A DNA stretch of 64,000 bases from Anaerolineales bacterium (lineage in GTDB: Bacteria > Chloroflexota > Anaerolineae > Anaerolineales > Villigracilaceae). Both the position numbers and the translations under genes were made by a program. The stretch covers positions 1-64,000 of the forward strand of contig JANJTV010000120.1 of assembly GCA_024710905.1 (NCBI GenBank). Reading direction: 5' to 3'. Numbering within the stretch: position 1 is the first letter of the stretch; each line of letters starts with the position of its first letter. This document shows, one piece after another, positions 30,815 through 46,772 of the stretch. The notes beneath the pieces are model-generated. The model did not search any database, was not told the origin of the DNA, and saw nothing but the letters and a program-made list of their open reading frames with translations.

Positions 30815-31987
30815 CTACGCCAAAATGTTGTTGGATTTAAGCGATTGAATTTCTGATTCGGAATACCCCAACTCGCGGAGCAAGCCCGGGGTGTGTTCCC
30901 CCACCTCAGGCAGGGAGGCCGCTTCCGGGCCGGTTTCCTGCTGCATTAAGAACGGCAGGCGCGGCAGGCGCGTTTCTTCGCCGGAAGGCAAGGTTGTGAG
31001 AATCAGGCTGCCGCCTGCGGCCAGTTGCGGGTCGTCGAACAGGTCTTCGGGGCGGGCAATCGGAGAGAAGGGCAGCTCGGCCTGCTCGCAACGGGAAATC
31101 ACTTCTGCCAGGGAAAGACCAGCCATCATCTCCCGCACGGCGGGCAGGAACCACTCCCGCTGCGAAATGCGGTCGTTGTTGGTTGCCAAGCGGGTGTCCG
31201 CCAGCCAGTCTGTACGGCCAAAGGCCTGGCAGAATTTTGCCCATTGTTTGTCGCTGGTAACGCCGACAAAAACCCGTTGGCCGTCAACTGTCTCAAATTG
31301 GTGATAAATGGCCCAGGCACTGACGCGTGCAGGCATGGGTGGCACCGGCTCACCGGAAACAGCCGAATAGGCCATGTGGTGGCCCATCAGGAAGGCGGAG
31401 GTTTCAAACAGGGCGCTTTGCACCAACTGGCCCTGGCCGGTTGAGTCGCGTTCGCGCAAGGCCAGCAAAACGGCCATCGCGCCCATCATGCCGGTGGTGA
31501 CATCAATGACCGATGCCCCGGCGCGCAACGGCTGGCCAACCGGGCCGGTCATATAGGCCAGGCCAGACATCATCTGCACCACTTCATCCAGCGCGGTTCG
31601 GGACTGATACGGCCCGGGCAGGAATCCTTTTAATTGGCAGTACACCAGCCGGGGGTAGCCCGCCGCAAGTTGTTCATATCCCAGGCCTAACCTTTCCATT
31701 GTGCCGGGGGCGTAGTTTTCGACCAGAACATCCGTTGTGGCAAGCAATTTTTGGATGATTTCCAGCCCCTGCGGGTCTTTCAGGTTGACGGCCAGGCTTT
31801 TCTTATTACGGTTGAAAAATGGGAAATAGCCCATGCCAAAGCCCTTCAGGCGGCGGGTCGGGTCGCCTTCGGGCGGTTCAATGCGGATGACCTCCGCGCC
31901 GAGATCGGCCAGGAACAGGCCAGTGGTAGGGCCCAGCACGGCGTGGGTAAATTCCAGCACGCGGGTGCCAGCCAGTGGGCGACTCAT
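30815..31987 (-). CDS. Family III CoA transferase (CaiB/BaiF type)
   Basis: The protein has 390 aa, usual for the family. The N-terminal signature L-A-G-T-R-V-L-E-F-T and L-G-A-E-V-I-R-I-E-P are present, and the acylating Asp is D162 in A-S-V-I-D-V-T-T-G-M. Such enzymes move CoA between carboxylic acids, for example succinyl-CoA to malate or citramalate. The ATG overlaps the dehydratase small subunit stop by 4 nt. With the dehydratase pair and the HMG-CoA-lyase-type enzyme upstream, it could activate a branched malate-type acid for cleavage (inference). It is the last gene of the 15-gene operon. Confidence 0.88.
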   Translation of the reverse strand: MSRPLAGTRVLEFTHAVLGPTTGLFLADLGAEVIRIEPPEGDPTRRLKGFGMGYFPFFNRNKKSLAVNLKDPQGLEIIQKLLATTDVLVENYAPGTMERLGLGYEQLAAGYPRLVYCQLKGFLPGPYQSRTALDEVVQMMSGLAYMTGPVGQPLRAGASVIDVTTGMMGAMAVLLALRERDSTGQGQLVQSALFETSAFLMGHHMAYSAVSGEPVPPMPARVSAWAIYHQFETVDGQRVFVGVTSDKQWAKFCQAFGRTDWLADTRLATNNDRISQREWFLPAVREMMAGLSLAEVISRCEQAELPFSPIARPEDLFDDPQLAAGGSLILTTLPSGEETRLPRLPFLMQQETGPEAASLPEVGEHTPGLLRELGYSESEIQSLKSNNILA

Positions 31988-32478
31988 TTGTAGCCGCCTT
32001 TCTGGTTCAGGAAATCCACCAGCCCCCCGGCGTTGAGAATCTCCAGCATGACATCCGGCATTTTGGTGGCCTGCCAGATCTGGCGGTTGCTGGAAACCGC
32101 GCCATTGAGGATATCCACTGTAACCTGCGCGCCGGGTTGGATGTCGTGCTGCGGGGCTTCAACCAAGAGCAGGCCAATGTTAATGGCATTGCGGAAGAAA
32201 ATGCGGGCAAACGAACGCGCCACCACCGCCGAAACCCCCGCCGCCTTGAGGGCAATCGGCGCCTGCTCACGGCTGGATCCACAGCCAAAGTTACTGCCTA
32301 CTACCAGCACATCCCCGGTGCGGACGGCGCTGGCAAAGGCTGGGTCGAGGTCTTCAAGTACGTGTGCGGCCAGGTCAGTTGTATCGAGTGTTTTGGTGTA
32401 TTTGCCGGGGATGATGCGGTCCGTATCAATGTTATCCACATTATAGACGTGGGCCTTGCCGGTGATGATGGTGGTCAT
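31984..32478 (-). CDS. Aconitase-family dehydratase, small subunit (LeuD/DmdB-like)
   Basis: The protein has 164 aa, the swivelling small subunit of a two-part hydro-lyase. Signature residues are D-T-D-R-I-I-P-G-K-Y (18-27) and G-S-N-F-G-C-G-S-S-R (61-70). The short length and the D-T-D-R-I-I form match the homoaconitase, citraconate and dimethylmaleate hydratase branch, which also contains isopropylmalate isomerase of archaea and Chloroflexota. It overlaps the large subunit by 4 nt. No other leucine genes (leuA, leuB) are near, so a catabolic hydratase is favoured, but a leucine role cannot be excluded. Confidence 0.85.
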   Translation of the reverse strand: MTTIITGKAHVYNVDNIDTDRIIPGKYTKTLDTTDLAAHVLEDLDPAFASAVRTGDVLVVGSNFGCGSSREQAPIALKAAGVSAVVARSFARIFFRNAINIGLLLVEAPQHDIQPGAQVTVDILNGAVSSNRQIWQATKMPDVMLEILNAGGLVDFLNQKGGYK

Positions 32479-33695
32479 AGGGCCTCCGGGTCGACGATTT
32501 CACCCGCCACAGCCGCGGCGGCCACCACGGCCGGGGAAGCAAGGAAAATACTGGCACGCGGGTTGCCCATGCGCCCCTGGAAGTTGCGGTTGGTGGAGGA
32601 AATGGTCACTTCGCCGTCGCCGGGCACGCCCAGGTGGGTGCCCACGCAAGGCCCACAGCCGGAGGTGATGAACACTGCCCCGGCCTCTGTCAGCGTCTGG
32701 ATGGTTCCATCGGCTAGGGCAGCCTCGAATACCGCTTTGGAAGCCGGGGCAATGATCAGGCGTACGGCCAGTTTACGGCCACGCAATACTTCGGCGACGG
32801 CCTGCAAGTCCTCGAGGCGGCTGTTGGTGCACGAGCCAATGAAGGCAGCATCCACTTTTTGGCCAAGTACTTCATCAATCGGGATGACATTATCCGGCGA
32901 GTGGGGAACGGCCACCTGCGGGCGCAGGGAGGAGACATCCACTTCGTAGCGAGCGCGGAAGTCGGCGCTTTCATCCACCAGCTGGTGCTCAAACGGTTCG
33001 TCCAGGCGCAGGCCGGTGGTGTCCACCAGCCCGGCTTTGGCGCCCATCTCGGCCACCATATTGGCCAGCACCATGCGGCTGGCAAGGGTCATTTGCTCCA
33101 CAACCGGGCCATTGAATTCAATGGATTCATAAACAGCGCCTTCCACTCCCATTCGCTGTACCAGATGCAGGATGATGTCTTTGGCGGTAATGCCTTTTGG
33201 CAGACGGCCGGTAAGCGTGAACAATACGGTCTGGGGAACTTTGAGCCAGGTTTGGCCAGTACGCAGCACCCCGGCCAGGTCCGTGGAACCAACGCCAACG
33301 GCAAATGCGCCCAGCGCGCCATAGGTTGGCGTGTGCGAATCCGCGCCGAGGAACAGGTCGCCGGGGCGGACGTGTCCGTTTTCCACCATCAACTGGTGGC
33401 AGATGCCCGCGCCCACGTCGTAGAGTTTGAGTCCCTGCTGACGGGCAAAATCGCGCATCATTTTATGCAAGTTGGCCACGCGCTCGTTCGGCGCCGGGGA
33501 GGCGTGGTCAATGACCAGAAAGGCTTTTTCGCGGTTCCAGACCGTTTTGCCGCCCATTTGTTCAAAGGCTTTAATCGCGAACGGCGCTGTGGCGTCGGTA
33601 GCCATCACGCCGTCCACATCCACAATGGCGATTTCACCAGCGCGGACGGGCTTCCTGGCGTGTTTGGAGATAATGCGTTCAGAAAGGGTTGCCAT
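32475..33695 (-). CDS. Aconitase-family dehydratase, large subunit (LeuC/DmdA-like)
   Basis: The protein has 406 aa. The 4Fe-4S ligands C289 (I-G-S-C-T-N-S-R), C347 and C350 (S-G-C-G-P-C) are all present, with G-A-D-S-H-T-P-T-Y-G (117-126). The compact length is that of the homoaconitase/dimethylmaleate hydratase branch rather than the longer LeuC of leucine operons. Likely chemistry is reversible hydration of a maleate- or citraconate-type acid. An ATG at 33707 would add four residues; the ATG at 33695 fits the family start M-A-T-L-S-E-R-I. It lies between the HMGL fusion gene and the small subunit in one operon. Confidence 0.85.
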   Translation of the reverse strand: MATLSERIISKHARKPVRAGEIAIVDVDGVMATDATAPFAIKAFEQMGGKTVWNREKAFLVIDHASPAPNERVANLHKMMRDFARQQGLKLYDVGAGICHQLMVENGHVRPGDLFLGADSHTPTYGALGAFAVGVGSTDLAGVLRTGQTWLKVPQTVLFTLTGRLPKGITAKDIILHLVQRMGVEGAVYESIEFNGPVVEQMTLASRMVLANMVAEMGAKAGLVDTTGLRLDEPFEHQLVDESADFRARYEVDVSSLRPQVAVPHSPDNVIPIDEVLGQKVDAAFIGSCTNSRLEDLQAVAEVLRGRKLAVRLIIAPASKAVFEAALADGTIQTLTEAGAVFITSGCGPCVGTHLGVPGDGEVTISSTNRNFQGRMGNPRASIFLASPAVVAAAAVAGEIVDPEAL

Positions 33696-33711
33696 GGGAT
33701 GAAACATAAAA

Positions 33712-35100
33712 TTAGTCTGTAACCAGTTTGTGCATTTTGGCGGGCAATTCCTTACCGAGCAAGGCCTCCATGCGCCGCGAGAGCGCCGCCACTTTGGGGA
33801 TGTCCACCCCGGTCTGGATGCTCATTTCGTGCAGCATGTAGGCCGTGTCCTCCGTGGCAACATTGCCTTTAGCGGTCTGGATGAACGGGCAACCGCCCAG
33901 CCCGCCAAAGGATGTGTCAAACGCAGTAACTCCGGATTTGAGTGCCGAGAGCAGGTTGGCCAGGCCCTGCCCGCGTGTGTCGTGCAGGTGCAGCACCACC
34001 GGCACACTGCCCGCCATCGGCAGGATCTCCTGTACGGTCTTGCGAATCAATTGCGGGTTGCCCAGCCCGGCCGAATCGGCCAGCGAGAGTTCATCAATGC
34101 CCATGGCGAGGAAACGACGGGACAGAGAAACCACTTTGGCGGTCTCAATGCGGCCCTCAAAGGCGCAGCCGAAGGCCACCTGCACCCCGGCGCGTACCTG
34201 CATACCGTATTCGCGGGCTTTTTGTACCATGGCGGACATTTCCTGCATGCCTTCCTCGATGCTGGTATTGGCGTTCTTCAGGGCCAGCGTTTCGGAGGCC
34301 GGTACACCCATATCCACCTTGCGGATGCCCGCTGCAGCGGCCCGTTCGAGGCCTTTCATGTTCAGCACCAGCGCGGAATAAGTCACGTCATCAAACTTCG
34401 GCAGGGAGGCACACAGCGCGTCAGCATCGGCCAGTTGCGGCACAATCCTCGGGTTGACAAACGAAGTAACTTGAATCTCTTTCAGACCTGCTTCAACCAG
34501 CCCGTGCACAAACTCAAGTTTGGTTTCGGTCGGGATGAATTTCTCCTCGCGCTGGATGCCGTCGCGCAGTCCAACTTCCACCAGCGAGACTTCTATCGGT
34601 ACGGTCGGAACTTCAAGGGCTTCGCTGCGCCGCCACAGGCGGTTGTGATACAGCAATGGGATGTCGAAATCAGAAACCGCCAGGTCTTTCACTTCACCAA
34701 CAAAAATCGTGTGATCGCCGCCGTCGTACATGGCCCAGACCGTACAATCCACCCAGGCCAGGCTGTCGGGCAGCAATGGCGCACCCGTGGCAGCAGTGGT
34801 GACATTCAGCCCGTCAAACCGGTCTTTAATTTCAGGTTTCATCCCGGCGAACCGCATGCCCAGGTCGAGTTGGCGAGCGCTGAGAACGTTCACGGCAAAA
34901 TAGCCGCTTTCGGCAATAACATTGTGGGTGAATAGGCGTTTATTTAGCGAGACCAGCACCAGCGGCGGCTCGAGGCTCAGGCTGGTAAACGAACTGGCTG
35001 TAATACCAATCGGCGTCTCACCATGCCGGGTGGTAACGACCGTTACCCCGGAAGCAAACTGGGACATGGCACGCTTGAAGTTATCGGGGGAATAGGCCAT
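33712..35100 (-). CDS. Fusion: flavin reductase domain plus HMG-CoA-lyase-type DRE-TIM lyase
   Basis: The protein has 462 aa in one uninterrupted frame. Residues 1-160 are a flavin reductase-like FMN domain (F-A-S-G-V-T-V-V-T-T, G-I-T-A-S-S-F-T-S-L-S-L-E-P-P, ending L-L-Y-H-N-R-L-W-R-R). Residues 168-462 are an HMG-CoA-lyase-type barrel with R179/D180 in V-G-L-R-D-G-I-Q, metal ligands H371 and H373 in H-L-H-D-T, catalytic C404 in G-L-G-G-C-P and N413 in K-G-N-V-A-T-E-D. The lyase half therefore looks active, splitting a 3-hydroxyacyl-CoA such as a citramalyl- or HMG-type thioester. The fusion is unusual; the reductase could feed FMNH2 to an oxygenase of this locus (inference). Confidence 0.88.
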   Translation of the reverse strand: MAYSPDNFKRAMSQFASGVTVVTTRHGETPIGITASSFTSLSLEPPLVLVSLNKRLFTHNVIAESGYFAVNVLSARQLDLGMRFAGMKPEIKDRFDGLNVTTAATGAPLLPDSLAWVDCTVWAMYDGGDHTIFVGEVKDLAVSDFDIPLLYHNRLWRRSEALEVPTVPIEVSLVEVGLRDGIQREEKFIPTETKLEFVHGLVEAGLKEIQVTSFVNPRIVPQLADADALCASLPKFDDVTYSALVLNMKGLERAAAAGIRKVDMGVPASETLALKNANTSIEEGMQEMSAMVQKAREYGMQVRAGVQVAFGCAFEGRIETAKVVSLSRRFLAMGIDELSLADSAGLGNPQLIRKTVQEILPMAGSVPVVLHLHDTRGQGLANLLSALKSGVTAFDTSFGGLGGCPFIQTAKGNVATEDTAYMLHEMSIQTGVDIPKVAALSRRMEALLGKELPAKMHKLVTD

Positions 35101-35106
35101 ACTGGG

Positions 35107-35904
35107 TTAATCTTCTTTGAACAGATCGCGCTTGATAAACGGGGCGGTCAGGAAACGCAGCATCAACCCGAAGCGCGAGAGATATTCAATATGTGCGCCA
35201 TTCTTCGGCCTGGAGAGCATTTGCTTCACAAGGAAAGGCACAACGTCCTCCACCCGGCTGGCGATGATATTAAAAATCGGTTTGAACCGCGCCCACTCGT
35301 CAGAATGCGGGTCAAATTGCCCCAGCACCATGTCCGTCTTGACCATGCCTGGCTGCAGGCTGCTAACCCGCACCTGCGTGCCCTCCAACTCGGCGGCCAG
35401 GGTCTTATTAATGAACGATACCGCCGCTTTCGACGAGCCATAAATGCCAATGCCGGGGCGCACACGGCCATTGGAGCCAAATCCTTCAAAATTAAAAATA
35501 TGCCCGAAGCCCTGCGCCAACATGCCCTTCACAGCCACACGCACGCCGTTCAGCAGGCCAAAGACATTTGCGCCAAAAATATTGTTGATGGTGGCCTGGT
35601 CCACTTCCCAGAGTTTAATTTGTGGATGCGCCAGCCCGGCGTTATTAATCCAGATGTCCACCCGTCCGAATTTGGCTACAGCGGAATCCCAGAGTTTTTG
35701 TACATCTTCCGGGCGGGTGACGTCGCAGGCGCACGAGGCGAGGCGTTCCGTACCGAAACGGGATTCCAGCTGACGGGCGGCCTGCTCCAGCGCCGCAGGG
35801 TTGCGCCCGCTGATGACGACGGAACACCCCTCGGCCAGGAATCCCCCGGCCAGACCCAATCCGATTCCCCTGGTAGAACCGGTAATGACAATCACCTTGC
35901 TCAT
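35107..35904 (-). CDS. Short-chain dehydrogenase resembling chlorophyll b reductase (NOL/NYC1)
   Basis: The protein has 265 aa. Standard SDR motifs are T-G-S-T-R-G-I-G (8-15), N-N-A-G (87-90), S144, Y155 and K159. Beyond these, three stretches recall plant NOL/NYC1 as I remember those sequences: V-D-I-W-I-N-N-A-G, H-I-F-N-x-x-G-x-G-S-x-G with Y-G-S-S-K, and P-G-M-V-x-T-x-x-x-L-G followed by F-N-I-I. NOL/NYC1 reduce the 7-formyl group of chlorophyll b. The gene overlaps the upstream barrel-protein gene by 4 nt and lies three genes from a Rieske oxygenase. A generic ketoreductase is the alternative. Confidence 0.8.
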   Translation of the reverse strand: MSKVIVITGSTRGIGLGLAGGFLAEGCSVVISGRNPAALEQAARQLESRFGTERLASCACDVTRPEDVQKLWDSAVAKFGRVDIWINNAGLAHPQIKLWEVDQATINNIFGANVFGLLNGVRVAVKGMLAQGFGHIFNFEGFGSNGRVRPGIGIYGSSKAAVSFINKTLAAELEGTQVRVSSLQPGMVKTDMVLGQFDPHSDEWARFKPIFNIIASRVEDVVPFLVKQMLSRPKNGAHIEYLSRFGLMLRFLTAPFIKRDLFKED

Positions 35905-36848
35905 GCCGCCACCCAGTTGAGCACGCCAAAGCTGGTGTATAGCATTTTGTCTGATTTGTAGAATTGCCAGACCACGCTCATGTTGAAGTTGTCGTCGATG
36001 ATGAATTCGCGGCCTTTGATTTTGAGCGACTCGCCGTAGAAGTGCTGGCTGGTGTAGAGCGCGCGGCCATAGCCAAAGGAATTGCCGAACAGGTCTGGCC
36101 CTTCAAAGAAATGGCGGTTGTTGTTGCGATAGCGATTGAACTTGTAGTTTTTGCTGAATACGCCGCTGATGGAAATGTTCATCTCGGCGTGCAGCAGGTC
36201 GAGCGGTTTGTAGTCCATGCGCACTTGGTTGGTGCCCAGTTTTCGCTGGTCTGCACCATACACCAGCATTTCACCCTGCCAGTGCCCGGATTTCTTGGAC
36301 GGCAGGATGTGTGGGTTGCGGCCATTGGTTTTTTCGGTTTCGCAGAAGGCGTCGATGCGGGTTTTGGTTTCAGCATTGGTGTGATAGTCAAACGCCACTT
36401 TGTAAATGCCGTTGAATACGGTGCAGATCTTTGGCCCGTCGTAAATGAGCGAAGAATAGACCTGGGTCTGGCCGTCGGGCAGGATGTGCACCATGGTGCG
36501 CAAGTCCCCCGTCCAGCCGGGGGAATAATAGTGCGCGTCTACTAGGCTGCCATAAGGATGTCCCGCGCCAATAAAATCCGGCCCGAGGTAAATGCGGTCC
36601 TGGTCGCTATCGATGACGCCAAATGAGAAGATATCCGAGACTTCAAAACGTGCCACCAACGGCCCGGCAGAATCCTGCAGGTGGGTGTTCATCGTATATG
36701 TGGTCGAGCCTTTTGCCTGGTCAAAGACAGACGAACGGTAGACCTTGTTGTAGCCGATGTGGTTGCCTTCGGTGTCGAAAATGGAAGGCAGGCCGTGCCA
36801 CTCGCCTTCAATGGATTTTTGCCAGTTGGAAGGTTGCGGGTTGCTCAT
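35901..36848 (-). CDS. Two-domain calycin-like (lipocalin/DUF3598-type) protein
   Basis: The protein has 315 aa with no signal peptide. Two copies of a barrel-start motif are seen: G-E-W-H-G near residue 15 and G-H-W-Q-G near 190. Each is followed by a Gly-rich turn and repeated beta strands, so two eight-stranded barrels in tandem are likely. The same motif occurs in three other proteins of this operon. Barrels of this type include bilin lyases (CpcS) and other tetrapyrrole carriers, which would fit the neighbours. Function is not proven. The ATG at 36848 has AGGAG upstream; the codon at 36851 is TTG. Confidence 0.65.
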   Translation of the reverse strand: MSNPQPSNWQKSIEGEWHGLPSIFDTEGNHIGYNKVYRSSVFDQAKGSTTYTMNTHLQDSAGPLVARFEVSDIFSFGVIDSDQDRIYLGPDFIGAGHPYGSLVDAHYYSPGWTGDLRTMVHILPDGQTQVYSSLIYDGPKICTVFNGIYKVAFDYHTNAETKTRIDAFCETEKTNGRNPHILPSKKSGHWQGEMLVYGADQRKLGTNQVRMDYKPLDLLHAEMNISISGVFSKNYKFNRYRNNNRHFFEGPDLFGNSFGYGRALYTSQHFYGESLKIKGREFIIDDNFNMSVVWQFYKSDKMLYTSFGVLNWVAA

Positions 36849-36865
36849 CAAATCTCCTTACAAGA

Positions 36866-37588
36866 CTATTTTTCAACCGATTGATTAATCAGGACGTGAC
36901 GCATTTTTTCGCTGGTTTCCGCGCCAACCAATCGCTCCACCTGCGCCCAGACCTTGTCCACGTTCGGGTCAAAAATGGCGGCGCGATTCAGTTGGTCGCG
37001 CCCGGCAAAGTCGGCGGCAGGCACCGCCCCGGTGGGAATGCCATTTTCGACCAGGTTAAACCAGTGTTCGAGATAGCCATTCACCGGGGCCTGGATCTGC
37101 CCAAACGCCGATTCGTTTGCGCGGTAAGCCAGCATCCACGGCGACATGAGCGCGTATTGCTTCGGCCCAAGCTGGGCGGGAGTCAGGCCTTCAATTTTCT
37201 TGGCTTCTTCAAAAATAGGCGTCAGGTCGTCAAAGATGGCGTTCAGGTAAGCCAGGTTGGCGCCCAGGTCGGCGCGCGGAATCAGGTCCAGGTGGAAGGC
37301 AAAGTACGGCCCGGCCAGCACCGAATCGAGGGTGAAATGCGGGATGTAGCTGCCCGGCGCAGTGAAGGCAAAGATCATGTGCGAATCCAGGCCGATCGGC
37401 GGGACGGCCAGGCCAATGTAAACCATCTTGTGAACCTTATCACCGCTAAACAGGCGCAGGCTGCCCACCGGGGCCGGGGACATCGGGCTGGTGAGGGTCA
37501 TGTACGGCGCGCCGATTTCGGTCAGGCCAAAGCGTTTCTGGATTTTTTCAAGCGTTCCAAGCGAAAGCTGGGCAGGCAGGGAGGACAT
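36866..37588 (-). CDS. Red chlorophyll catabolite reductase (RCCR) homolog A
   Basis: The protein has 240 aa. The core matches plant RCCR (Pfam RCC_reductase, related to ferredoxin-dependent bilin reductases): Y-I-P-H-F-T-L-D (81-88), then H-L-D-L-I-P-R-A-D-L (99-108) and the C-terminal R-D-Q-L-N-R-A-A-I-F-D-P-N-V-D (197-211). D88 aligns with Glu154 of Arabidopsis RCCR, and an Asp in 207-211 with Asp291, both reported active-site residues. RCCR reduces the C20/C1 double bond of the open tetrapyrrole with ferredoxin electrons. The gene lies 28 nt downstream of the Rieske oxygenase in the same operon. The substrate may differ from the plant one. Confidence 0.75.
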   Translation of the reverse strand: MSSLPAQLSLGTLEKIQKRFGLTEIGAPYMTLTSPMSPAPVGSLRLFSGDKVHKMVYIGLAVPPIGLDSHMIFAFTAPGSYIPHFTLDSVLAGPYFAFHLDLIPRADLGANLAYLNAIFDDLTPIFEEAKKIEGLTPAQLGPKQYALMSPWMLAYRANESAFGQIQAPVNGYLEHWFNLVENGIPTGAVPAADFAGRDQLNRAAIFDPNVDKVWAQVERLVGAETSEKMRHVLINQSVEK

Positions 37589-37616
37589 GGTGTACTTCTC
37601 CGTGATGGGAATAAAT

Positions 37617-38741
37617 CTAGTCGCCGGATTCCGGCTTGACAGTCGGCACTTCTTTCAACACCCAGGCCTTGGCCAGGTCGGGGTTGTCCTTGCGGGCCGG
37701 GGAGGGAATCACCACAGCATGCTGGCGGCCGTATTCCTGTTTGATGCGGTGAATATCAATCTGCCAACCCTTATCAATATATTTCTGGCGCATGCGGCGG
37801 TAAGCAATCTGGATGCCGTCTGATTTGACCGACAATTCCGCGCCAATGTCGTAGGGCAGCAGTTCCGGGCGCTGGGAGAGCACAATCGGGTAATCCTGAT
37901 TGAATATTTTCAGCACACGCTTGAGGGCGTCACCATCTGCCCAACTACCTTTGAAAAAGGTGCGCAGTTGCGTCCATTTTGTGATGGTTTTGTATTCATC
38001 CACCGGCAGGTGGAAGTTGAACAGAATCATCAGGCCCATCGGCAGGGTGACTTCCAGCAGGGTCATGCAGGGCATCCAGAAGGCGGCGCGGGTCTTTACA
38101 CCGGGACGATCTTCTTTATAAAGACTGCTCCACAGGCCCTTGATATTCTTCCTCGGCGGTTTGAGCGTCACCGTCATGCTGCCGCCGTAGGGATAATCCT
38201 CCACTTCGTAATCGGGGATGTCCGGCTCTTCGCGGTTGCCGAACGCGCCGCCATGCACAAACGGGGCGTGGGCGGCATCCAGGCTGTTTTCAAGGGCGCG
38301 CTCGTAGTACACATCCCACTCGAATGTGCCGCGCACCACCCGGAATTGCGGGTCGTCAAAGTAAGGCAATTCGGGCAGGGGCGGGCGTTCCGCTTCGGGC
38401 AGGTCACCCAGGAAGGCCCAGATATAGCCATATTTTTCGACCGTCGGGTACGAATCCACACGCGCCTTCTTGGGTGGGACAAGATCGGGGTGGGCAGGGA
38501 TTTTGACGCACGAACCATCAGCCTTGTATTCCCAGCCGTGGTACGGGCAGACAATACAGTCGCCGTTCATCCAGCCGTCTGAAAGTGCCCCGCCGCGATG
38601 CACGCACAGGTCACTCAGCACATGCGCCACACCGTCCGGCGTACGGTAGATGACGAATTCCTGTTCGAGAGCCGTCACCCGCAAGGGTTTGTCTTTGATG
38701 AGATGAGCAAATTCGAGCGGCCACCAAAAGTTCTTTAACAT
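37617..38741 (-). CDS. Rieske [2Fe-2S] oxygenase, pheophorbide a oxygenase/VanA-like
   Basis: The protein has 374 aa. The Rieske cluster ligands are C46-V-H48 and C65-P-Y-H68. The mononuclear iron site is N152-x2-D155-x2-H158-x4-H163 in E-N-S-L-D-A-A-H-A-P-F-V-H, the order found in pheophorbide a oxygenase (PaO), chlorophyll a oxygenase, TIC55 and vanillate demethylase. No membrane helices or C-terminal CxxC are obvious, unlike plant PaO. PaO opens the chlorin ring and gives the RCCR substrate; here the gene is flanked by two RCCR homologs (one directly, one across the hydrolase). The ATG at 38741 has AGGAG 8 nt upstream. Electron donors are not encoded here, apart from the flavin reductase fusion. 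Confidence 0.85.
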   Translation of the reverse strand: MLKNFWWPLEFAHLIKDKPLRVTALEQEFVIYRTPDGVAHVLSDLCVHRGGALSDGWMNGDCIVCPYHGWEYKADGSCVKIPAHPDLVPPKKARVDSYPTVEKYGYIWAFLGDLPEAERPPLPELPYFDDPQFRVVRGTFEWDVYYERALENSLDAAHAPFVHGGAFGNREEPDIPDYEVEDYPYGGSMTVTLKPPRKNIKGLWSSLYKEDRPGVKTRAAFWMPCMTLLEVTLPMGLMILFNFHLPVDEYKTITKWTQLRTFFKGSWADGDALKRVLKIFNQDYPIVLSQRPELLPYDIGAELSVKSDGIQIAYRRMRQKYIDKGWQIDIHRIKQEYGRQHAVVIPSPARKDNPDLAKAWVLKEVPTVKPESGD

Positions 38742-38757
38742 CTTCTTTTCTCCTTGT

Positions 38758-39723
38758 TTACCTGGTTTCAAACCGAGTAATGAACGGATTCTCCCTTGCG
38801 ATTTGGGCTAACGATTCAAAACTTTGCCTGCCAACTGCCGCCCGGATGAAAGCATCCACCAGTTCGACGAACACCTGCCGCAGGGCGGCCTGGTCGCCGC
38901 TTGCGGGCTGTTCCAGGAATCCGCGCCCGGTGGTGTCATCGTGTGGATGACAGGCCAGGAAGTGGTTGGCGCCCTCGAGGATGGCCAGCGCCGCCGGGTT
39001 TTTGGCCGCTTCGGCAAAAGTACGTTCCAGGAGCAGGGTGGGCGTTCCCTGCCCGTCGAGGGCATAACGATGGCTGGAGGCTTCCACCACCCCATCCTGC
39101 GCCCCACCTACAATCAGGAGCGGGTTTTCGGGCAGGGATAAAACCGTGCCAGCCGCATAGCCAAGCATGGTGCTGGCCCCGCTGTGTGCGCCGTAGGCGA
39201 ACGAACCCACCACCTGCGGGAACCATTCGCGGTTGGCGTTCAGCAGCGCGATGGTGCCACCCGCCGAATGACCACCGAGAATCACTTTGTTCACATCCAG
39301 CAGGCCTGCCAGCACGGAGCTTTCGTTCAGGCGGCTGAGTTCTTCCAGCATGGCGGGCAGGGCCGAGGCAGAGGGGCCGGAGCCGTAGGCATCCGCTTTA
39401 AGGGCGGCCAGATCCATGCCGGGGGTTAACGCCACCGAGCCGGGCAGGTCTTCCGCAATCCAACTCATCAGCATTGTCACCACACCGCGCCGGGCCAATT
39501 CCACGGCCAGCCAGGCATAAGATTCCATGCCGACGTTCACACCGGGCAGGAAGATCACCACCGGGTAGGGCGCGCGGTTGGTATCCGCCGGAATGACACC
39601 GGTGTTGCGTTCGTTGGGTGTATCGCCAAACACAGCCGGGTAGTACACCTTGAGCGTGATGGTGTCATACGGGGCTGTGGCGTTGGCCACCTTTGCAGCA
39701 CGGAAAAAAGCCCGAACCATCAT
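38758..39723 (-). CDS. Alpha/beta hydrolase, chlorophyllase-like esterase
   Basis: The protein has 321 aa. It has Y-P-V-V-I-F-L-P-G (53-61), the nucleophile elbow G-G-H-S-A-G-G with S153, acid D210 in G-G-A-Q-D and base H254 in G-A-N-H-F. The order and the elbow recall plant chlorophyllase (G-H-S-R-G-G), which removes phytol from chlorophyll, but PET-hydrolase and dienelactone-hydrolase-like esterases share these features. No signal peptide is clear. The ATG at 39723 overlaps the RCCR-B stop by 4 nt. The chlorophyllase assignment rests largely on context. Confidence 0.72.
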   Translation of the reverse strand: MMVRAFFRAAKVANATAPYDTITLKVYYPAVFGDTPNERNTGVIPADTNRAPYPVVIFLPGVNVGMESYAWLAVELARRGVVTMLMSWIAEDLPGSVALTPGMDLAALKADAYGSGPSASALPAMLEELSRLNESSVLAGLLDVNKVILGGHSAGGTIALLNANREWFPQVVGSFAYGAHSGASTMLGYAAGTVLSLPENPLLIVGGAQDGVVEASSHRYALDGQGTPTLLLERTFAEAAKNPAALAILEGANHFLACHPHDDTTGRGFLEQPASGDQAALRQVFVELVDAFIRAAVGRQSFESLAQIARENPFITRFETR

Positions 39724-40520
39724 TCTGGCCGCGGGTTTACCCGGTCGCCGCCCCACAGGCCGCGCACCAGTTTGTCGGCCATGTCCTTGCCAAAAAGTTG
39801 TTCGCCAACCACATTGGCCGGGTCGCGGTCTGCAATTGCGCGCCGGACAGCCAGGTCGCGGGCTGCCAGCGCGGGCCGTTCGCTGGCAGGGGTGGGCTCA
39901 GCTTCGTTGACGTTCTTCAGCCAGCCATCGAACATCCAGTGCGCCAGGTCGCGGATTTCGCTGACTGCCTTGTCCGTCGGCTGCACCAGGTAAACAAAAC
40001 CAGTCTGCGAGACAGACGTGCGCATGTACACATCGCGGCTGATGAACGGGCGGTAGTCCGGGTTGTCCTGGAATTCGCGCCACTTGTTGTTTACCGGCAG
40101 GTAATATTTATCCAGGTAATCCAGGTCCACCATTAAATCGACACGCGGGATGTAATCAAAATAGAAGAAAATATCGGGCATTGTGCCCATGGCCATGCCA
40201 AAATGCGGCGCCTTGACTTGCGGCCCGAGCCAGACGGTGAAATGCATGTTGGTAAAGCTGTGCTTCGGGTTGCCAATGTGGCTGTGCACCAGCCAGTCGA
40301 TCTCCGGCCCGGTGAACGTGTTCAGCGAGCCTTTGGCGTTGCCATCCAGCGAGGTGTAGCTGGCAAACGGCGCGGTGGAGGCGTCTGGTGTCAGCTCAAA
40401 GCGGGCGGCCAGTTTTTCGCTCAGTTCGCGGGTAATTTCCCACAGCTTGCCAAACCAGCCAGAGGTATCCACATTGGGCTGGGCGGCCAATAATTCCATC
40501 AGCGATTGCGTTGTAGCCAT
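39720..40520 (-). CDS. Red chlorophyll catabolite reductase (RCCR) homolog B
   Basis: The protein has 266 aa. It is the closer of the two to plant RCCR: K-A-P-H-F (103-107), F-D-Y-I-P-R-V-D-L (121-129), D-Y-L-D-K-Y-Y (134-140), S-R-D-V-Y-M-R-T (161-168) and R-D-L-A-V-R-R-A-I-A-D-R-D (221-233). D233 fits the place of Asp291, but the residue aligned with Glu154 is A110, whereas homolog A has Asp there. The two paralogs may therefore differ in stereochemistry or substrate, or act as a heteromer. The gene overlaps the hydrolase gene and follows a barrel-protein gene by 13 nt. Confidence 0.82.
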   Translation of the reverse strand: MATTQSLMELLAAQPNVDTSGWFGKLWEITRELSEKLAARFELTPDASTAPFASYTSLDGNAKGSLNTFTGPEIDWLVHSHIGNPKHSFTNMHFTVWLGPQVKAPHFGMAMGTMPDIFFYFDYIPRVDLMVDLDYLDKYYLPVNNKWREFQDNPDYRPFISRDVYMRTSVSQTGFVYLVQPTDKAVSEIRDLAHWMFDGWLKNVNEAEPTPASERPALAARDLAVRRAIADRDPANVVGEQLFGKDMADKLVRGLWGGDRVNPRPE

Positions 40521-40533
40521 ACAGTTCTCTCTC

Positions 40534-41373
40534 CTATTCAGGTGTCAGGTGGTAAAACTCAACGTGCGTCACGGCATGATCGGTGAACCACTTGCGCAGG
40601 CCGAGCAGGTGCCTGCCTGCCGGGTCCAGGACTTCCATGATTTCCAAAATCGTGTCGCCGCCTGCGGCCAGTTCGGCTTCAAACAGGTGGCCGGTTTGTT
40701 TGGATAAGCCGGTTAAATGGTCGCTGGTAATACGCCGGATTCCGTCCTGGGGAGCGGGTTCCAGCAGCCAGGACTGCTCCCCGCCGGAATCTGACCACCC
40801 GGAGGCGTGATACTGTCTCGATAAGGTGTTTTCCAATTCCACAATGCCCGCCGCGCTCACCCGTCGCAGGCTGCCAGACCAATTGGGTGCAACCTGCTCC
40901 GGCCGGGTCTGTGCGCCAAAGGTCGGGTAGTCCATGCCAGTGGTTTCCTCTAAAACAGCAATCCCGACAATATTGGCCCGAACCTCGCCCGCCGTGTGGA
41001 ATTTACCGCCGGTTAATTGCAGGTTGGGCCCGGCCAGCAGGCCAAAGGATGTGAAGTTGAAACCCAGGCGCGTCCAGAAACCACGCCCGGTGATGACTCC
41101 CTCGCCCCAGGCCAGGCCTGTGCCAATCACATCCGGGCCGTGGTAGCGGCGGGCGCGCCCATTCACCGAAAGGTCAAAGACCCACTCGCCCGCAAAACGA
41201 CCGAGCGCATGAGACTTCAATTGTTCATCCGGCAGGCAGACCTGCGTTACACGGATGCGGCCATCTTCCAGGCGGTGCAGACTGCGCCGCTGGCGATTAA
41301 TGCCTGCAAATGAGCCATCTGCGTTGTAAACGTACTCGCTAACCAGCCAAGAACCTAGAAAAGAAACAGACAT
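40534..41373 (-). CDS. Calycin-like protein, paralog 2
   Basis: The protein has 279 aa, beta-rich, with no signal peptide. It starts with L-G-S-W-L-V-S-E-Y, a variant of the G-x-W barrel motif, and has a second motif N-W-S-G-S-L near 170. The mid region G-L-L-A-G-P-N-L-Q-L-T-G-G is typical strand-turn sequence. It is a weak paralog of the products at 35901 and 41378. The ATG at 41373 lies 4 nt after the upstream stop; the frame extends to a TTG at 41391. A carrier or chaperone for a hydrophobic pigment is suggested by the operon only. Confidence 0.58.
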   Translation of the reverse strand: MSVSFLGSWLVSEYVYNADGSFAGINRQRRSLHRLEDGRIRVTQVCLPDEQLKSHALGRFAGEWVFDLSVNGRARRYHGPDVIGTGLAWGEGVITGRGFWTRLGFNFTSFGLLAGPNLQLTGGKFHTAGEVRANIVGIAVLEETTGMDYPTFGAQTRPEQVAPNWSGSLRRVSAAGIVELENTLSRQYHASGWSDSGGEQSWLLEPAPQDGIRRITSDHLTGLSKQTGHLFEAELAAGGDTILEIMEVLDPAGRHLLGLRKWFTDHAVTHVEFYHLTPE

Positions 41374-41377
41374 GGCA

Positions 41378-42280
41378 TCAGCGCGATTCAAACGTCAGGA
41401 TGCCGACCTGCGCGCCAATGCGCTGGCCGCCGCGATACCATAAATGCACAACGGCTTTCACGTCACCGGTGTGGGTGACCACCTCCCGCCGCCAGACTCG
41501 CAGGCTGGGCCGCAGGTGTTGGATGTGCCCACTGGAAGCCCGCCCGCCGCACAGGTTGTACGAACCGGCCAGATCGCCGGGGCCGGACCAAGCCTGGAAG
41601 CCGTTGGTTTTCCATTTAACGGTGGTAGGCTGCGGATCGTACGCCATCCCGGAATAACTGATTTCAACCTGGTTCCCGTTCGTTTCAACGGTCTCCACAT
41701 ATTCGTTGGCGGAAATCTCGTTCAATTTTTCATCCAGCACGGCCAGCCTGCCGCGCCACACGCCTTTGCGGTGTAATAGGATTTCGCCGCGCCCGGCGGC
41801 CGGGTCATTTTTTAGGTCGTGTTCGCTGCCATCCACCAGGCCGGGGATACCTTCGAAGGCATCCTCCACACGCTGGTTTTCGCCAACCACACTGTAGATT
41901 AACTGGTCGCCGCGCGAAAGTTGGGCCAGGCTGAGCTGGGTTTTCCCGTCTGGCAGCACCATCAGGAAAAAACGCTGGCTCATGCCAATCGCCGCCCAGT
42001 AGGAGTTTGAATCGACCAGGGTTTCAGTGAGCGGTTCGGCGTAGCCGACATTCACCGGGCCCTGGTACAAGCGCTCAGTCTTGCGGTCTTCAATGAAATA
42101 ATGACCCGAAAACTTGAACGGGCCGAGGAAAGAAAGGTCGATGCGAATGCGGTTTTCGGCCACCTGCTGCACATTGCGGCGGTCGGTGCCATTGCCCAAA
42201 AAGCAGCCTTCGCCGGAGTACACCTCGGCGCACCCGGCCCATTTGCCGGCCGCTTTGCTGAAACCTTCGCTGCGCGACAT
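41378..42280 (-). CDS. Calycin-like protein, paralog 3 (two domains)
   Basis: The protein has 300 aa. Two barrel motifs are seen: G-K-W-A-G-C-A-E-V-Y (12-21) and G-V-W-R-G-R-L-A-V-L (about 175-184). Strand patterns match the protein at 35901, including the bridging D-S-N-S-Y-W and L-P-D-G-K-T-Q segments, where the paralog has D-A-H-Y-Y-S and L-P-D-G-Q-T-Q. There is no signal peptide or membrane segment. It is separated from the DUF3891 gene by 2 nt. A tetrapyrrole-binding role is inferred. Confidence 0.62.
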   Translation of the reverse strand: MSRSEGFSKAAGKWAGCAEVYSGEGCFLGNGTDRRNVQQVAENRIRIDLSFLGPFKFSGHYFIEDRKTERLYQGPVNVGYAEPLTETLVDSNSYWAAIGMSQRFFLMVLPDGKTQLSLAQLSRGDQLIYSVVGENQRVEDAFEGIPGLVDGSEHDLKNDPAAGRGEILLHRKGVWRGRLAVLDEKLNEISANEYVETVETNGNQVEISYSGMAYDPQPTTVKWKTNGFQAWSGPGDLAGSYNLCGGRASSGHIQHLRPSLRVWRREVVTHTGDVKAVVHLWYRGGQRIGAQVGILTFESR

Positions 42281-42282
42281 GC

Positions 42283-43098
42283 CTAACCTGCCACCAACCG
42301 GTAAGACTGCACCTGCCGGGGCGTGGTCTGGAAAATGTGGGCAAAATCCGCGCCCTGCGGCTGGGGGGTGATGAAACGGCCTTCAACGCGGACTTCAATC
42401 GATTCGTCTTCAAAGGGGAAGGGGCTGAGCGCATAGCTGCCATCGCCGCGCGGGGCAATTTGCAGCATCAGGTTGTTGCCCTGGCCATCCGGCACATTGA
42501 GGAAGGAAGCTTCCTTGCGGGCTTCGGCATGAGTCATGTGGAAGTACAGCGAAAGGGTGTCGAAGAATTGCAATAACTTGTAATTATTGAACAGGGCGGT
42601 TTGCTCGACCCAGGCGGCGGTCTCCGGGTCAGCGGCCAGGGCAGCCTTGAGCCGTTCCTGGCGGGCCAGTTCGTCGGCCAGCATTTGCTGCGCGGCAGCC
42701 TTGTGCTCCTCGGCAATTTTGTCAATAAAAATGAAATCAGACATGCCATAGCGGCCATTAAACAGTCCGTAGGTATGCATGGAGGAAAGTAGGCCACAGT
42801 AGGCATGGTGTTTCTCATTAAAATCCGGCGATCCCTTAGAGGTGCGAATCAGGTACGGCAGGGGCGTCTGGGTCAGGTGGTGTGGCAGGCCGGTGGCCGG
42901 GGATTGTTCACGCAGGCCATCCACAGGCTGCCAGCCTTCATCATGATGCGACACAATATAAACCATCAGGTCATGCGGAACGGGTTTTGCAAATTGCCGG
43001 TTGCCAAACTGGCTGGCAAACTGCCCGCTCATGCGAGCGTGGTCGGCCTGTTCTATCGCAAAATGGGGCTGGCCCTCGGCGGCGGTCTGGATGATCAT
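42283..43098 (-). CDS. DUF3891-family protein
   Basis: The protein has 271 aa. It begins with Q-A-D-H-A-R-M-S-G-Q-F-A and has conserved His/Asp clusters S-H-H-D-E-G-W (50-56), S-S-M-H-T-Y-G-L (about 104-111) and F-N-N-Y-K-L-L-Q-F-F-D-T-L-S-L. These fit DUF3891, an uncharacterised helical family whose His/Asp pattern recalls HD-type metal enzymes. A metal-dependent hydrolase or a dechelatase-like role is conceivable in this operon, but there is no direct evidence. It lies 11 nt after the small barrel gene and 2 nt before the next. Confidence 0.75.
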   Translation of the reverse strand: MIIQTAAEGQPHFAIEQADHARMSGQFASQFGNRQFAKPVPHDLMVYIVSHHDEGWQPVDGLREQSPATGLPHHLTQTPLPYLIRTSKGSPDFNEKHHAYCGLLSSMHTYGLFNGRYGMSDFIFIDKIAEEHKAAAQQMLADELARQERLKAALAADPETAAWVEQTALFNNYKLLQFFDTLSLYFHMTHAEARKEASFLNVPDGQGNNLMLQIAPRGDGSYALSPFPFEDESIEVRVEGRFITPQPQGADFAHIFQTTPRQVQSYRLVAG

Positions 43099-43109
43099 GA
43101 TCGGCTCCT

Positions 43110-43565
43110 TTAGGGCTGCTGCACGCGCACAAAGTCTTGAATCTGGAATATTAACGTCTTGCCATCGCGCACCTTGTGGGTGATGATGCGGCGGTTATTC
43201 GGGTCAATGAAATAATGGTTGTTATAGACCGTGGACTGCGAGACGTTGCTCTCAATAGTAAAGACATAATTGTAGGGGGTCAGTTCCGTTCCGTGCAGCT
43301 GGACCATCTCATTGCCGCCTGAGCAATACTTGCCATCCACTTTGACGTCTGTGTGATAGACCGCCGGGCCATAGCCGTACAGCTTCTCAAAATCCTCGTG
43401 CAGGTGCCAAGTGTTCTCGTCAATCCAGTACACATCCATGTGCACCGCGCTGGCCTCCAGGAAATTCCCCTGACCATCAAAGGTTTTGCACAACCCTTCC
43501 CAGCGCCCCATAAAGCACTGGTACGAACGGGTGGATTTCGGATCACCGTAATTTTTCTCGCTCAT
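43110..43565 (-). CDS. Small single-domain calycin-like protein, paralog 4
   Basis: The protein has 151 aa, the length of one barrel. G-R-W-E-G-L-C-K-T-F-D-G-Q-G (20-33) matches the DUF3598/CpcS-like barrel start and the motif repeated in three larger proteins of this operon. It is the first structural gene after gntR (11 nt apart). Candidate roles are binding or delivery of a tetrapyrrole or its breakdown products. There is no catalytic signature. Confidence 0.65.
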   Translation of the reverse strand: MSEKNYGDPKSTRSYQCFMGRWEGLCKTFDGQGNFLEASAVHMDVYWIDENTWHLHEDFEKLYGYGPAVYHTDVKVDGKYCSGGNEMVQLHGTELTPYNYVFTIESNVSQSTVYNNHYFIDPNNRRIITHKVRDGKTLIFQIQDFVRVQQP

Positions 43566-43576
43566 TGAAAAGACTC

Positions 43577-44296
43577 CTAAATATTGAGTTGGAACTTGAA
43601 GCGATCGCCCCGGTAGTTGGCCCGCAGGAACTCAAGCGGTTTGCCCGCTGAATCCGAATACACCACCTGGATGGACAGCACCGGTTCACCCGGCTTGATT
43701 TTCAACAGACCGGCTTCGGTCGTCCCGGCAGGCACGGCCTGCACCGTGCGGCGGATGCGGATGCCGTCCCGGTCGGGCAGTTCACGCATGTAGTCGCGCA
43801 GGGCTTCGTCGCTGGCATTTTCAGGGTCAAATTTGCCATGGCGGGTAAGGGCCACAAAGTGCCGCCCAATCGGTTCGCCATTGGCGCGCAGCAACAACTC
43901 CACCAGATAGACCTTTTCATCTTCCGGGATGCCCAGCGCCTCCTGCACCTGCTGGAAGGGCACGCCATTGCCACGGCTGAGGAATTGCCATTCCGGCTCA
44001 ATGCCCTGCTGGCGCATCAAGGCAGTGATGCTGATGCGCTCCATCGGGTCGTGTACGATCTCACGTGCGGCCACAAACGTACCCTGCCCGCGATGGCGGG
44101 TGAAACGGCCTTCAAAGGTCAGTTCGGCCAGGGCCTGGCGCACGGTGGTCCGGCTGAGTCCGTAGGTTTCCTGCAATTCCTGTTCGCTGGGCACCAGGTC
44201 GCCGGGCTTCCATTCGCCGGAGTCAAGCTTGTCAACAATCAATTGTTTGAGCTGGTAATACAGGGGGAGGGGGGATTCGCGGTCAATTGTGATCAT
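43577..44296 (-). CDS. GntR/HutC-family transcriptional regulator with UTRA domain
   Basis: The protein has 239 aa. The N-terminal winged helix (residues 5-75) carries P-S-E-Q-E-L and the recognition helix L-S-R-T-T-V-R-Q-A-L. Residues 90-237 form the UTRA ligand-binding domain (R-x-x-x-G-x-P with L-V-E-L-L-L-R-A-N-G-E-P-I). Such regulators release DNA when a pathway metabolite binds. The ATG at 44296 is used; the frame extends to a TTG at 44320. It heads the 15-gene minus-strand operon and is divergent from the amidohydrolase operon. The perfect palindrome at 44332-44349 overlaps both promoters and is the expected operator. Confidence 0.92.
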   Translation of the reverse strand: MITIDRESPLPLYYQLKQLIVDKLDSGEWKPGDLVPSEQELQETYGLSRTTVRQALAELTFEGRFTRHRGQGTFVAAREIVHDPMERISITALMRQQGIEPEWQFLSRGNGVPFQQVQEALGIPEDEKVYLVELLLRANGEPIGRHFVALTRHGKFDPENASDEALRDYMRELPDRDGIRIRRTVQAVPAGTTEAGLLKIKPGEPVLSIQVVYSDSAGKPLEFLRANYRGDRFKFQLNI

Positions 44297-44312
44297 GGTT
44301 TTCACCAAAGTA

Positions 44313-44340
44313 TTGTACAAAGAAAAAGAAATGTTATAAT
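44313..44340 (+). promoter_or_regulatory. Promoter of the amidohydrolase operon
   Basis: TTGTAC (44313-44318) and a perfect TATAAT (44335-44340) are 16 nt apart. The -10 box lies inside the GntR palindrome. Confidence 0.6.
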
Positions 44341-45858: not shown

Positions 45859-46772
45859 AATTCGGCATCCATTCCCCCTCCTGGCTGTACCCCGGCAACC
45901 CCTTCGACGGCATCCGCGAAAAAGCCCTGCGCCTCGAAGAACTGGGCTTTGCCTGGCTCTCGGTCATGGATCACATGATGCAAATCCCCGTGCACGGCCC
46001 GCCGGACGAGCCTTTCATGGAAGGTTGGACCACCCTCTCGGCGCTGGCCGCCGTCACCAGCAAAATCCGCCTTGCCACGCTGGTTTCGTCCACCTCCTAC
46101 CGCAACCCGGCCCTGCTGGCCAAAATGGCCGCCACGGTGGATGTCATCAGCAAGGGCCGCCTGACGCTGGGCATTGGCGCGGGCTGGTTCGAAGATGAAT
46201 ACCAGCAATACAATTGGGAATTCCTGCCCAAACCAGCCGACCGCATCCACCGTCTGGAAGACGCCATCAAATTGATTAAAGCCATGTGGATGGAAGAACG
46301 GGGTGACTACCGAGGCCGCTTTTATTCCGTTAAAGAGGCCATTCTCCAGCCCAAACCGATCCAAAAACCGCACCCACCCATCCTGGTGGGCGGCGCGGGC
46401 GAGCAACTGACCTTGCGAGTGGTGGCCCGTCACGGCAACGCCTGCAACCTGATTGGCAGCCCGCAGGAAGTGCGCCATAAATTTGATGTACTGGAACAAC
46501 ACTGTGAAAACGAAGACCGCAATTACAAGGATATTGAAAAAACAGCCCTGCTGAACGTGCTGGTTGCAAGGGATGAGAGCAACCTCTCAGCCCGCATGGC
46601 GCAGCTCGACGCGGGAACGCACTTCAGGGGGCACCCGCTGACCATCCCCCAGGCAGCAGACCTGTTTGGGCAATATCAGCAGGCCGGGGTACAGCTGCTG
46701 ATCATCAGCATTTATCGCAACGATGAAGACAGCCTGCAAGCCATTGCCGAAATGATGGGAAATTTTTCGTAA
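45855..46772 (+). CDS. LLM-class flavin-dependent oxidoreductase (F420/FMN)
   Basis: The protein has 305 aa in a luciferase-like TIM barrel. It has S-V-M-D-H-M near residue 36, I-R-L-A-T-L-V-S-S-T-S-Y-R-N-P (about 72-86), G-R-L-T-L-G-I-G-A-G-W and P-I-L-V-G-G-A-G. Members use F420H2 or reduced FMN for reductions or monooxygenations. The cofactor cannot be told from sequence. It overlaps the amidohydrolase gene by 4 nt. In this operon it may reduce or oxygenate a heterocyclic intermediate. Confidence 0.85.
   Translation: MKFGIHSPSWLYPGNPFDGIREKALRLEELGFAWLSVMDHMMQIPVHGPPDEPFMEGWTTLSALAAVTSKIRLATLVSSTSYRNPALLAKMAATVDVISKGRLTLGIGAGWFEDEYQQYNWEFLPKPADRIHRLEDAIKLIKAMWMEERGDYRGRFYSVKEAILQPKPIQKPHPPILVGGAGEQLTLRVVARHGNACNLIGSPQEVRHKFDVLEQHCENEDRNYKDIEKTALLNVLVARDESNLSARMAQLDAGTHFRGHPLTIPQAADLFGQYQQAGVQLLIISIYRNDEDSLQAIAEMMGNFS

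Follow-up and report, generated by a model that had tools for sequence, protein, structure and literature searches.

In anaerobic nicotinate fermentation the 2,3-dimethylmaleate hydratase DmdAB acts together with 2,3-dimethylmalate lyase, a member of the isocitrate-lyase superfamily that works on the free acid. In Chloroflexus, citramalate is activated by a succinyl-CoA:citramalate CoA transferase and cleaved by an R-citramalyl-CoA lyase, and aerobic nicotinate catabolism employs the maleamate amidase NicF and the maleate isomerase NicE. Here we analyse a gene cluster of an Anaerolineales bacterium (Chloroflexota; GenBank assembly GCA_024710905.1, contig JANJTV010000120.1, positions 1 to 64,000 of the forward strand; this 64-kb stretch is referred to below as the window) in which genes for an aconitase-family hydro-lyase, a class III CoA transferase and an HMG-CoA-lyase-type lyase stand in one run with genes of tetrapyrrole type. 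We favour, with moderate confidence, the reading that this block encodes the lower half of a route by which linear tetrapyrroles or pyrrole fragments are broken down via alkylmaleimides and alkylmaleates.

In plants, according to the accessible text of PMC7318184, linear tetrapyrroles are regarded as end products, and methyl-ethyl-maleimide, methyl-vinyl-maleimide and hematinic acid are oxidative products of chlorophyll and heme. RCCRs feature only as the outgroup of bilin reductases in the available portion of PMC10151467; bacterial homologues of Mg-dechelatase are described, with their role called unknown, in that of PMC8531759; and PMC5592240, likewise available in part, provides background on citramalyl-CoA. 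Among the titles and abstract openings found in our literature search, whose coverage mostly excluded subscription papers, none describes a bacterial RCCR-LeuCD-CaiB-HMGL pathway.

Results

All evidence presented here consists of sequence and predicted folds, that is, of gene content, gene order, families, synteny, phylogeny, conservation and two modelled structures; G403 and most of the other genomes compared are draft bins. The window carries a run of genes on the minus strand (30815-44320), the last four of which, at its 3' end, form the lower module. These encode a 462-residue fusion of a flavin reductase with an HMG-CoA-lyase-type lyase (33712-35100; Pfam PF01613 and PF00682, HMGL-like 4.5e-42), the large Fe-S subunit LeuC2 (32475-33707; Pfam aconitase 2.3e-96, above the cut-offs of NCBIfam NF001614 and TIGR02086), the small subunit LeuD2 of a LeuD/DmdB-type hydro-lyase (31984-32478; Pfam aconitase-C 1.9e-21, above the cut-off of NCBIfam TIGR02087) and the class III CoA transferase CaiB (30815-31987; Pfam PF02515, CoA_transf_3, 2.6e-108). 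The genes are tightly packed: LeuC2 and LeuD2 overlap by 4 bases, as do LeuD2 and CaiB, and the gap from the fusion open reading frame to LeuC2 is 4 bases. The Pfam matches bear out the initial annotation, which had placed a CoA transferase, an aconitase-family pair and a DRE-TIM lyase side by side at these positions; its description of the fourth gene holds for the HMGL domain (residues 171-442) and had missed the fused flavin reductase (residues 12-154).

The same run encodes two RCCR-family proteins, a Rieske oxygenase and DUF3598-like lipocalins. On the opposite strand, 77 bases past a GntR/UTRA regulator gene that separates the two divergent runs (43577-44320, minus strand; Pfam GntR and UTRA), starts HYD, a hydantoinase-type cyclic amidohydrolase (44398-45858, plus strand; match to allantoinase 3e74, 1.8e-44). 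A hydantoinase-type hydrolase in a divergent operon had indeed been part of the earlier description.

The arrangement recurs in other genomes. A scan of GTDB genomes with an RCCR alignment yielded 24 loci, nine of which (L020-L028, 42-84% identity) are of the window type by identity and neighbours: seven from Chloroflexota, one from Oligoflexaceae and one from Acidimicrobiaceae. Gene mapping took in 14 genomes, 12 of them with LeuC2, and in all 12 LeuC2, LeuD2 and CaiB are contiguous and run in the same direction, an order kept more often than chance would allow. In G400 the contig holding this run starts within LeuC2, and the lyase and the first part of LeuC2 are on another contig. The lyase lies immediately upstream of LeuC2 in 10 of the 12 (the exceptions are G406 and G408); seven genomes show the flavin reductase fusion, and in G240 a separate flavin reductase is encoded near the lyase. 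The amidohydrolase is present in 10 of the 12 genomes; in G112, G325, G400 and G403 it directly follows CaiB, and in G408 it comes after the lyase. Genes for RCCRb (the second RCCR-family protein), the Rieske oxygenase and a lipocalin are located within the module's own run in G000, G112, G325, G401, G402, G403 and G404. An entire run occupies 24.7 kb of the one-contig genome G112, from a maleate-isomerase gene to an aldehyde dehydrogenase gene, and includes genes for maleate isomerase, maleamate amidase, CaiB2, GntR regulator, lipocalin, esterase, Rieske oxygenase, RCCRb, fusion lyase, LeuC2, LeuD2, CaiB, amidohydrolase, ACAD-fold (acyl-CoA-dehydrogenase-fold) protein and aldehyde dehydrogenase. 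This conserved synteny led us to reject the idea that the cluster is an isolated curiosity. We also dropped the notion that contigs L060 and L100 of G403 abut, given an overlap of only 90% over 781 bases and the absence of RCCRa (the first RCCR-family protein) from L100; positions 1-2067 of L100 hold a second, 90% identical copy of the lipocalin region, without RCCRa.

Queries independent of RCCR were run against 400 evenly drawn Chloroflexota genomes. The closest LeuC2 relatives, in G112, G240 and G274 (64-69%), all sit within lyase-LeuC2-LeuD2-CaiB runs, and the next ones among the matches listed reach at most 51%; G325 adds a fourth relative (66-67%). The LeuC2 gene of G325 (L167, 13254-14463) is split over two frames between intact neighbours, reflecting either a sequencing error or a decayed gene. 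At E <= 1e-120 the amidohydrolase occurs in four of the 400 genomes (G000, G112, G240 and G325), and all four possess the module, a co-occurrence with a hypergeometric probability of 4.8e-9, or 1.5e-6 if G325 is left out of the LeuC2 set, both values being uncorrected for kinship. RCCR was likewise detected in four of the 400 (G000, G112, G134 and G325). An early view that the genomes with the first RCCR matches of the phylum (G112, G325 and G134) lack the cluster proved wrong for G112 and G325, which carry the module elsewhere in the genome. As judged from gene order and co-occurrence, the data strongly support the view that the lower module, the amidohydrolase and the tetrapyrrole-type genes are linked.

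LeuC2 and LeuD2 fail to reach the NCBIfam equivalog cut-offs of LeuC and LeuD. A canonical LeuC is encoded elsewhere in the genome: it runs off the end of contig C51 and resumes, together with LeuD and IlvE, on contig C146, the two contig ends sharing an identical LeuC stretch. We therefore rejected the possibility that LeuC2D2 is the only LeuCD of the genome, and with it the prospect, raised in the initial annotation as fatal to its proposal, that the dehydratase is the sole isopropylmalate isomerase. A 42-row LeuC tree places the 10 LeuC2 rows in one clade (support 100/100) apart from the genome's own canonical LeuC, which is represented by a partial row of 255 residues. The LeuD2 motif IDTDRIIPGKYTKTLD is present in all 10 aligned LeuD2 proteins, and at that site the canonical LeuD of this genome reads YLKV and the LeuD of the Oligoflexaceae genome YLRT. 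By sequence, then, LeuC2D2 is to be classed as distinct from the housekeeping LeuCD. A LeuC2 search of plasmids returned 76 records, all below 60% identity and none useful.

CaiB reaches no NCBIfam equivalog cut-off. The lyase aligns with human HMG-CoA lyase at 8.4e-68 and, in this and in a 12-row alignment, keeps the catalytic and metal-binding residues of that enzyme, to which we presume the roles commonly assigned apply. The best NCBIfam match of the fused flavin reductase domain is HsaB, below its cut-off.

The best NCBIfam match of the amidohydrolase is allantoinase (1.4e-67), at 228.4 bits against a cut-off of 357.85, and no dihydropyrimidinase or allantoinase equivalog is reached. Its metal ligands (four His, a carbamylated Lys and an Asp), read by eye, align with those of 3e74; this ligand set was taken from PMC9863593, in the accessible part of which imidases are counted among the cyclic amidohydrolases and one reference title concerns maleimide hydrolysis. 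Two further genes of the divergent run encode the ACAD-fold flavoprotein (46791-48068) and an aldehyde dehydrogenase (48091-49566; Pfam Aldedh 9.6e-117), both on the plus strand. The best PDB matches of the ACAD-fold protein include 5gj7, 3m9v, the nitrososynthase 3mxl and DszC, which we take to be monooxygenases, and by these matches it appears to be nearest to two-component flavin monooxygenases. The luciferase-like, F420-type oxidoreductase gene that follows the amidohydrolase (45855-46772, plus strand; TIGR03560 above cut-off) is missing from the other mapped loci, and in G403 and G112 its place is taken by an MFS transporter.

Among the tetrapyrrole-type genes, all on the minus strand, RCCRa (39720-40520) matches Pfam PF06405 at 1.7e-17 and passes its curated cut-off (63.9 bits versus 24.9); a four-row RCCRa profile retrieves Arabidopsis RCCR from the PDB at 8.2e-15, followed by ferredoxin bilin reductase at 6.5e-4. 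RCCRb (36866-37588) has no Pfam match by sequence. Its AlphaFold2 model (pLDDT 91) has RCCR as the best Foldseek hit (E 2.1e-12, TM 0.73-0.79 by query length), with bilin reductases and coproporphyrinogen oxidase next, which indicates that the predicted structure has the RCCR/bilin reductase fold. DUFa (35901-36851), modelled with the same pLDDT of 91, is a DUF3598-like double lipocalin whose best PDB match is the cyanobacterial DUF3598 protein 2o62 (E 1.3e-08) and which also matches BFA1; it is possibly a pigment carrier. The VanA_C-type Rieske oxygenase (37617-38771; Pfam Rieske and VanA_C), with SxtDIOX, NdmA, SxtT and DdmC as its best PDB matches, is proposed to be a ring-opening or demethylating oxygenase, and next to it lies an alpha/beta hydrolase, or esterase (38758-39756; Pfam Abhydrolase_5 1.9e-05, generic). 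Together these genes make a good case for a tetrapyrrole link of the cluster, and chlorophyll is a candidate substrate.

The remaining minus-strand genes are a short-chain dehydrogenase (35107-35904; Pfam adh_short 2.7e-42) with a conserved position in relatives; DUFb (40534-41391), a relative of DUFc by tblastn similarity at DUFc places and conserved in position; DUFc (41378-42280), which is DUF3598-like by a weak Pfam match below cut-off (DUF3598_N 0.071) and aligns with the DUFa family at 20-25%; a DUF3891 protein (42283-43098; Pfam PF13030 6.8e-42), again conserved in position; and DUFd (43110-43565), a small protein with no Pfam family above cut-off and 67-74% identity in relatives. Far from the cluster, window positions 6802-9168 encode a protein of 788 residues whose two halves both resemble aldehyde dehydrogenases (tblastn).

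Maleamate amidases and maleate isomerases act on maleamate and maleate, and genes of both families recur near the module and at a second locus. Second-type RCCR clusters in Chloroflexota (L014, L016-L019, L029-L043) contain CN-hydrolase, FAD monooxygenase, maleate-isomerase-family and maleamate-amidase-family genes and CaiB2. The genome of the window has both families within such a cluster on contig C34 (58078-58818 and 61764-62381), the two proteins being 76% and 89% identical to their orthologues at L041. At L041, L149 and L100 the amidase/isomerase pair precedes the GntR-DUFd part of a window-type cluster; in G408 the isomerase gene is followed directly by LeuC2-LeuD2-CaiB; and each family is present in eight of the 10 genomes searched (G000, G400-G408). 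In Roseilinea-type genomes (L016, 18756-19649; L029-L031) the second-type cluster includes a methylisocitrate-lyase-family gene above its NCBIfam cut-off.

A single contig of the Oligoflexaceae genome G405 holds relatives of the Rieske oxygenase (44%), aldehyde dehydrogenase (42%), ACAD-fold protein (58%), lyase (38%), CaiB (30%), LeuC (31%) and LeuD (33%), along with an isochorismatase-family hydrolase of the maleamate-amidase family and a maleate-isomerase-family protein. In the PDB the hydrolase best matches N-carbamoylsarcosine amidohydrolase (1.4e-51) and 3ot4/3uao (2.7e-40), the latter presumably maleamate amidase, and the isomerase has four matches, every one a maleate isomerase (2xed, 4fq5, 2xec and 4fq7). 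The G405 LeuC passes two subfamily cut-offs of ordinary bacterial LeuC and clusters with ordinary LeuC in the tree rather than with LeuC2, and therefore the G405 set was assembled separately. Judged by family membership, the amidase and isomerase genes near the module and at the genome's own second locus lend independent support to alkylmaleate chemistry.

Discussion

The gene set suggests the following route. RCCR-family reductases, the Rieske oxygenase, the esterase and lipocalins would handle the tetrapyrrole, and the ACAD-fold flavin monooxygenase, supplied by the flavin reductase domain, would together with aldehyde dehydrogenases oxidise the freed pyrroles to maleimides; the presence of a flavin reductase in the module run would then be explained, since it is the natural partner of such a monooxygenase-like protein. 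Acting as an imidase, the amidohydrolase would open the alkylmaleimide to an alkylmaleamate, and the maleamate-amidase-family protein of contig C34, or self-hydrolysis, would yield the alkylmaleate. Dialkylmaleamates readily hydrolyse spontaneously, which may explain the lack of an adjacent amidase in some clusters. LeuC2D2, as an alkylmaleate hydratase, would form the alkylmalate, CaiB would convert it to its CoA ester, and the lyase, as an alkylmalyl-CoA lyase, would split the ester by a retro-Claisen reaction, releasing a 2-oxo acid together with an acyl-CoA. Ethylmethylmaleate would thus give pyruvate and butyryl-CoA, or 2-oxobutyrate and propionyl-CoA. The initial annotation had sketched the sequence of hydrolysis, hydration, activation and cleavage of maleimides; the syntenic link of module, amidohydrolase and tetrapyrrole genes and the amidase and isomerase genes speak for that sequence, with ethylmethylmaleimide and hematinic acid as plausible candidate substrates.

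A number of observations weigh against this tetrapyrrole pathway. Every reaction in it is predicted from genes, as are its substrates and the sequence of its steps. The genome encodes no HMGL besides the lyase, and an HMG-CoA role is for that reason conceivable. Searches for the amidohydrolase gave no match in G401 (E <= 1e-40) or G274 (E <= 1e-120). G240 has the module and the amidohydrolase, and the stretch of it that was read holds relatives of neither RCCR nor the Rieske oxygenase, so that other sources of maleates are possible; conversely, the Acidimicrobiaceae genome G407 has RCCRa, the Rieske oxygenase, RCCRb and the amidohydrolase and yields neither a LeuC2 orthologue nor a match to the lyase. 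Since G407 and G240 each have one half without the other, neither half strictly requires its counterpart. Glu154 and Asp291 of Arabidopsis RCCR, which we take to be catalytic, correspond by hand count on the alignments to Ala and Asp in RCCRa and to Asp and Asn in RCCRb; each of the two thus retains just half of the residue pair expected of an RCC reductase. Chlorophyll as the substrate is disfavoured further: the Rieske protein matches only Pfam Rieske and VanA_C at E <= 0.001, with no PaO C-terminal domain; the esterase retrieves generic hydrolases only from the PDB and has no chlorophyllase Pfam match; and Mg-dechelatase (PF12638) was detected in none of the 14 genomes, in a search that carries little weight, its control query having likewise matched nowhere. 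In leaf samples, according to the accessible text of PMC7318184, hematinic acid was found and maleimides were not detected.

Some of these points would sit well with a module that degrades alkylmaleates or citraconate of other origin, from a different N-heterocycle or a dicarboxylate in a nicotinate-like manner, with the RCCR genes co-regulated or recruited otherwise. The amidase- and isomerase-family genes, FAD monooxygenase and CaiB2 of the second-type clusters resemble a nicotinate-catabolism set, and G240, besides having no RCCR on the stretch read, combines the module with a Liv-type transporter. Set against this is the fact that RCCRb, Rieske and lipocalin genes share the module's run in seven genomes, and we regard such an origin as unlikely. 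Isoprenoid or leucine-type catabolism, in which the esterase would release phytol, the lyase would be a true HMG-CoA lyase and LeuC2D2 a spare isopropylmalate isomerase, draws its strength from the lyase, which passes an NCBIfam HMG-CoA lyase subfamily cut-off, aligns well with the human enzyme and is the sole copy in the genome. This explanation is at odds with the presence of a canonical LeuCD and with a LeuC2 clade of its own that is tied to CaiB and the lyase; as we understand these routes, an aconitase-type hydratase and a CoA transferase have no place in them, and we consider it improbable. Even less credible to us is a pathway for pyrimidines, hydantoins or purines built around a dihydropyrimidinase or allantoinase: allantoinase and hydantoinase do come out best for the amidohydrolase in NCBIfam and the PDB, yet no equivalog cut-off is reached, and the gene, which at E <= 1e-120 occurs in only four genomes out of 400, is accompanied by the module in every one of them.

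The degradation of tetrapyrrole fragments via alkylmaleates is thus the reading we retain for the block. A wider proposal, which we put forward only tentatively and think somewhat doubtful, is that the whole pathway, from tetrapyrrole via single rings, alkylmaleimide, alkylmaleate, alkylmalate and alkylmalyl-CoA into central metabolism, exists in some heterotrophic Chloroflexota and has arisen convergently in an Oligoflexia lineage, enabling these bacteria to live on chlorophyll or heme remnants. If true, the conversion of the rings to acyl-CoA and keto acids by such a gene set would complete that section of the carbon and nitrogen cycle, and enzymes for pyrrole and maleimide chemistry would become available.

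With the plant PaO/phyllobilin pathway the cluster has in common the RCCR family (by sequence and fold), a Rieske oxygenase and an esterase; it differs in the VanA_C type of the Rieske protein, the generic character of the esterase and the lack of a Mg-dechelatase match, for which the control was silent too. The DmdAB system offers a parallel in the aconitase-family hydration of a disubstituted maleate followed by C-C cleavage, and LeuD2 falls into an NCBIfam family named LeuD/DmdB, a likeness by family name and not by DmdAB sequence; unlike that system, the cluster features a CoA transferase and a lyase of HMGL type. The citramalate step of Chloroflexus similarly pairs a class III CoA transferase with an HMGL-type lyase to give a 2-oxo acid and an acyl-CoA, whereas it comes without a hydratase, an amidohydrolase or tetrapyrrole genes. 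Finally, the linked clusters share amidase- and isomerase-family genes with aerobic nicotinate catabolism; here, however, these genes lie outside the window, and the window adds a hydratase, a CoA transferase and a lyase.

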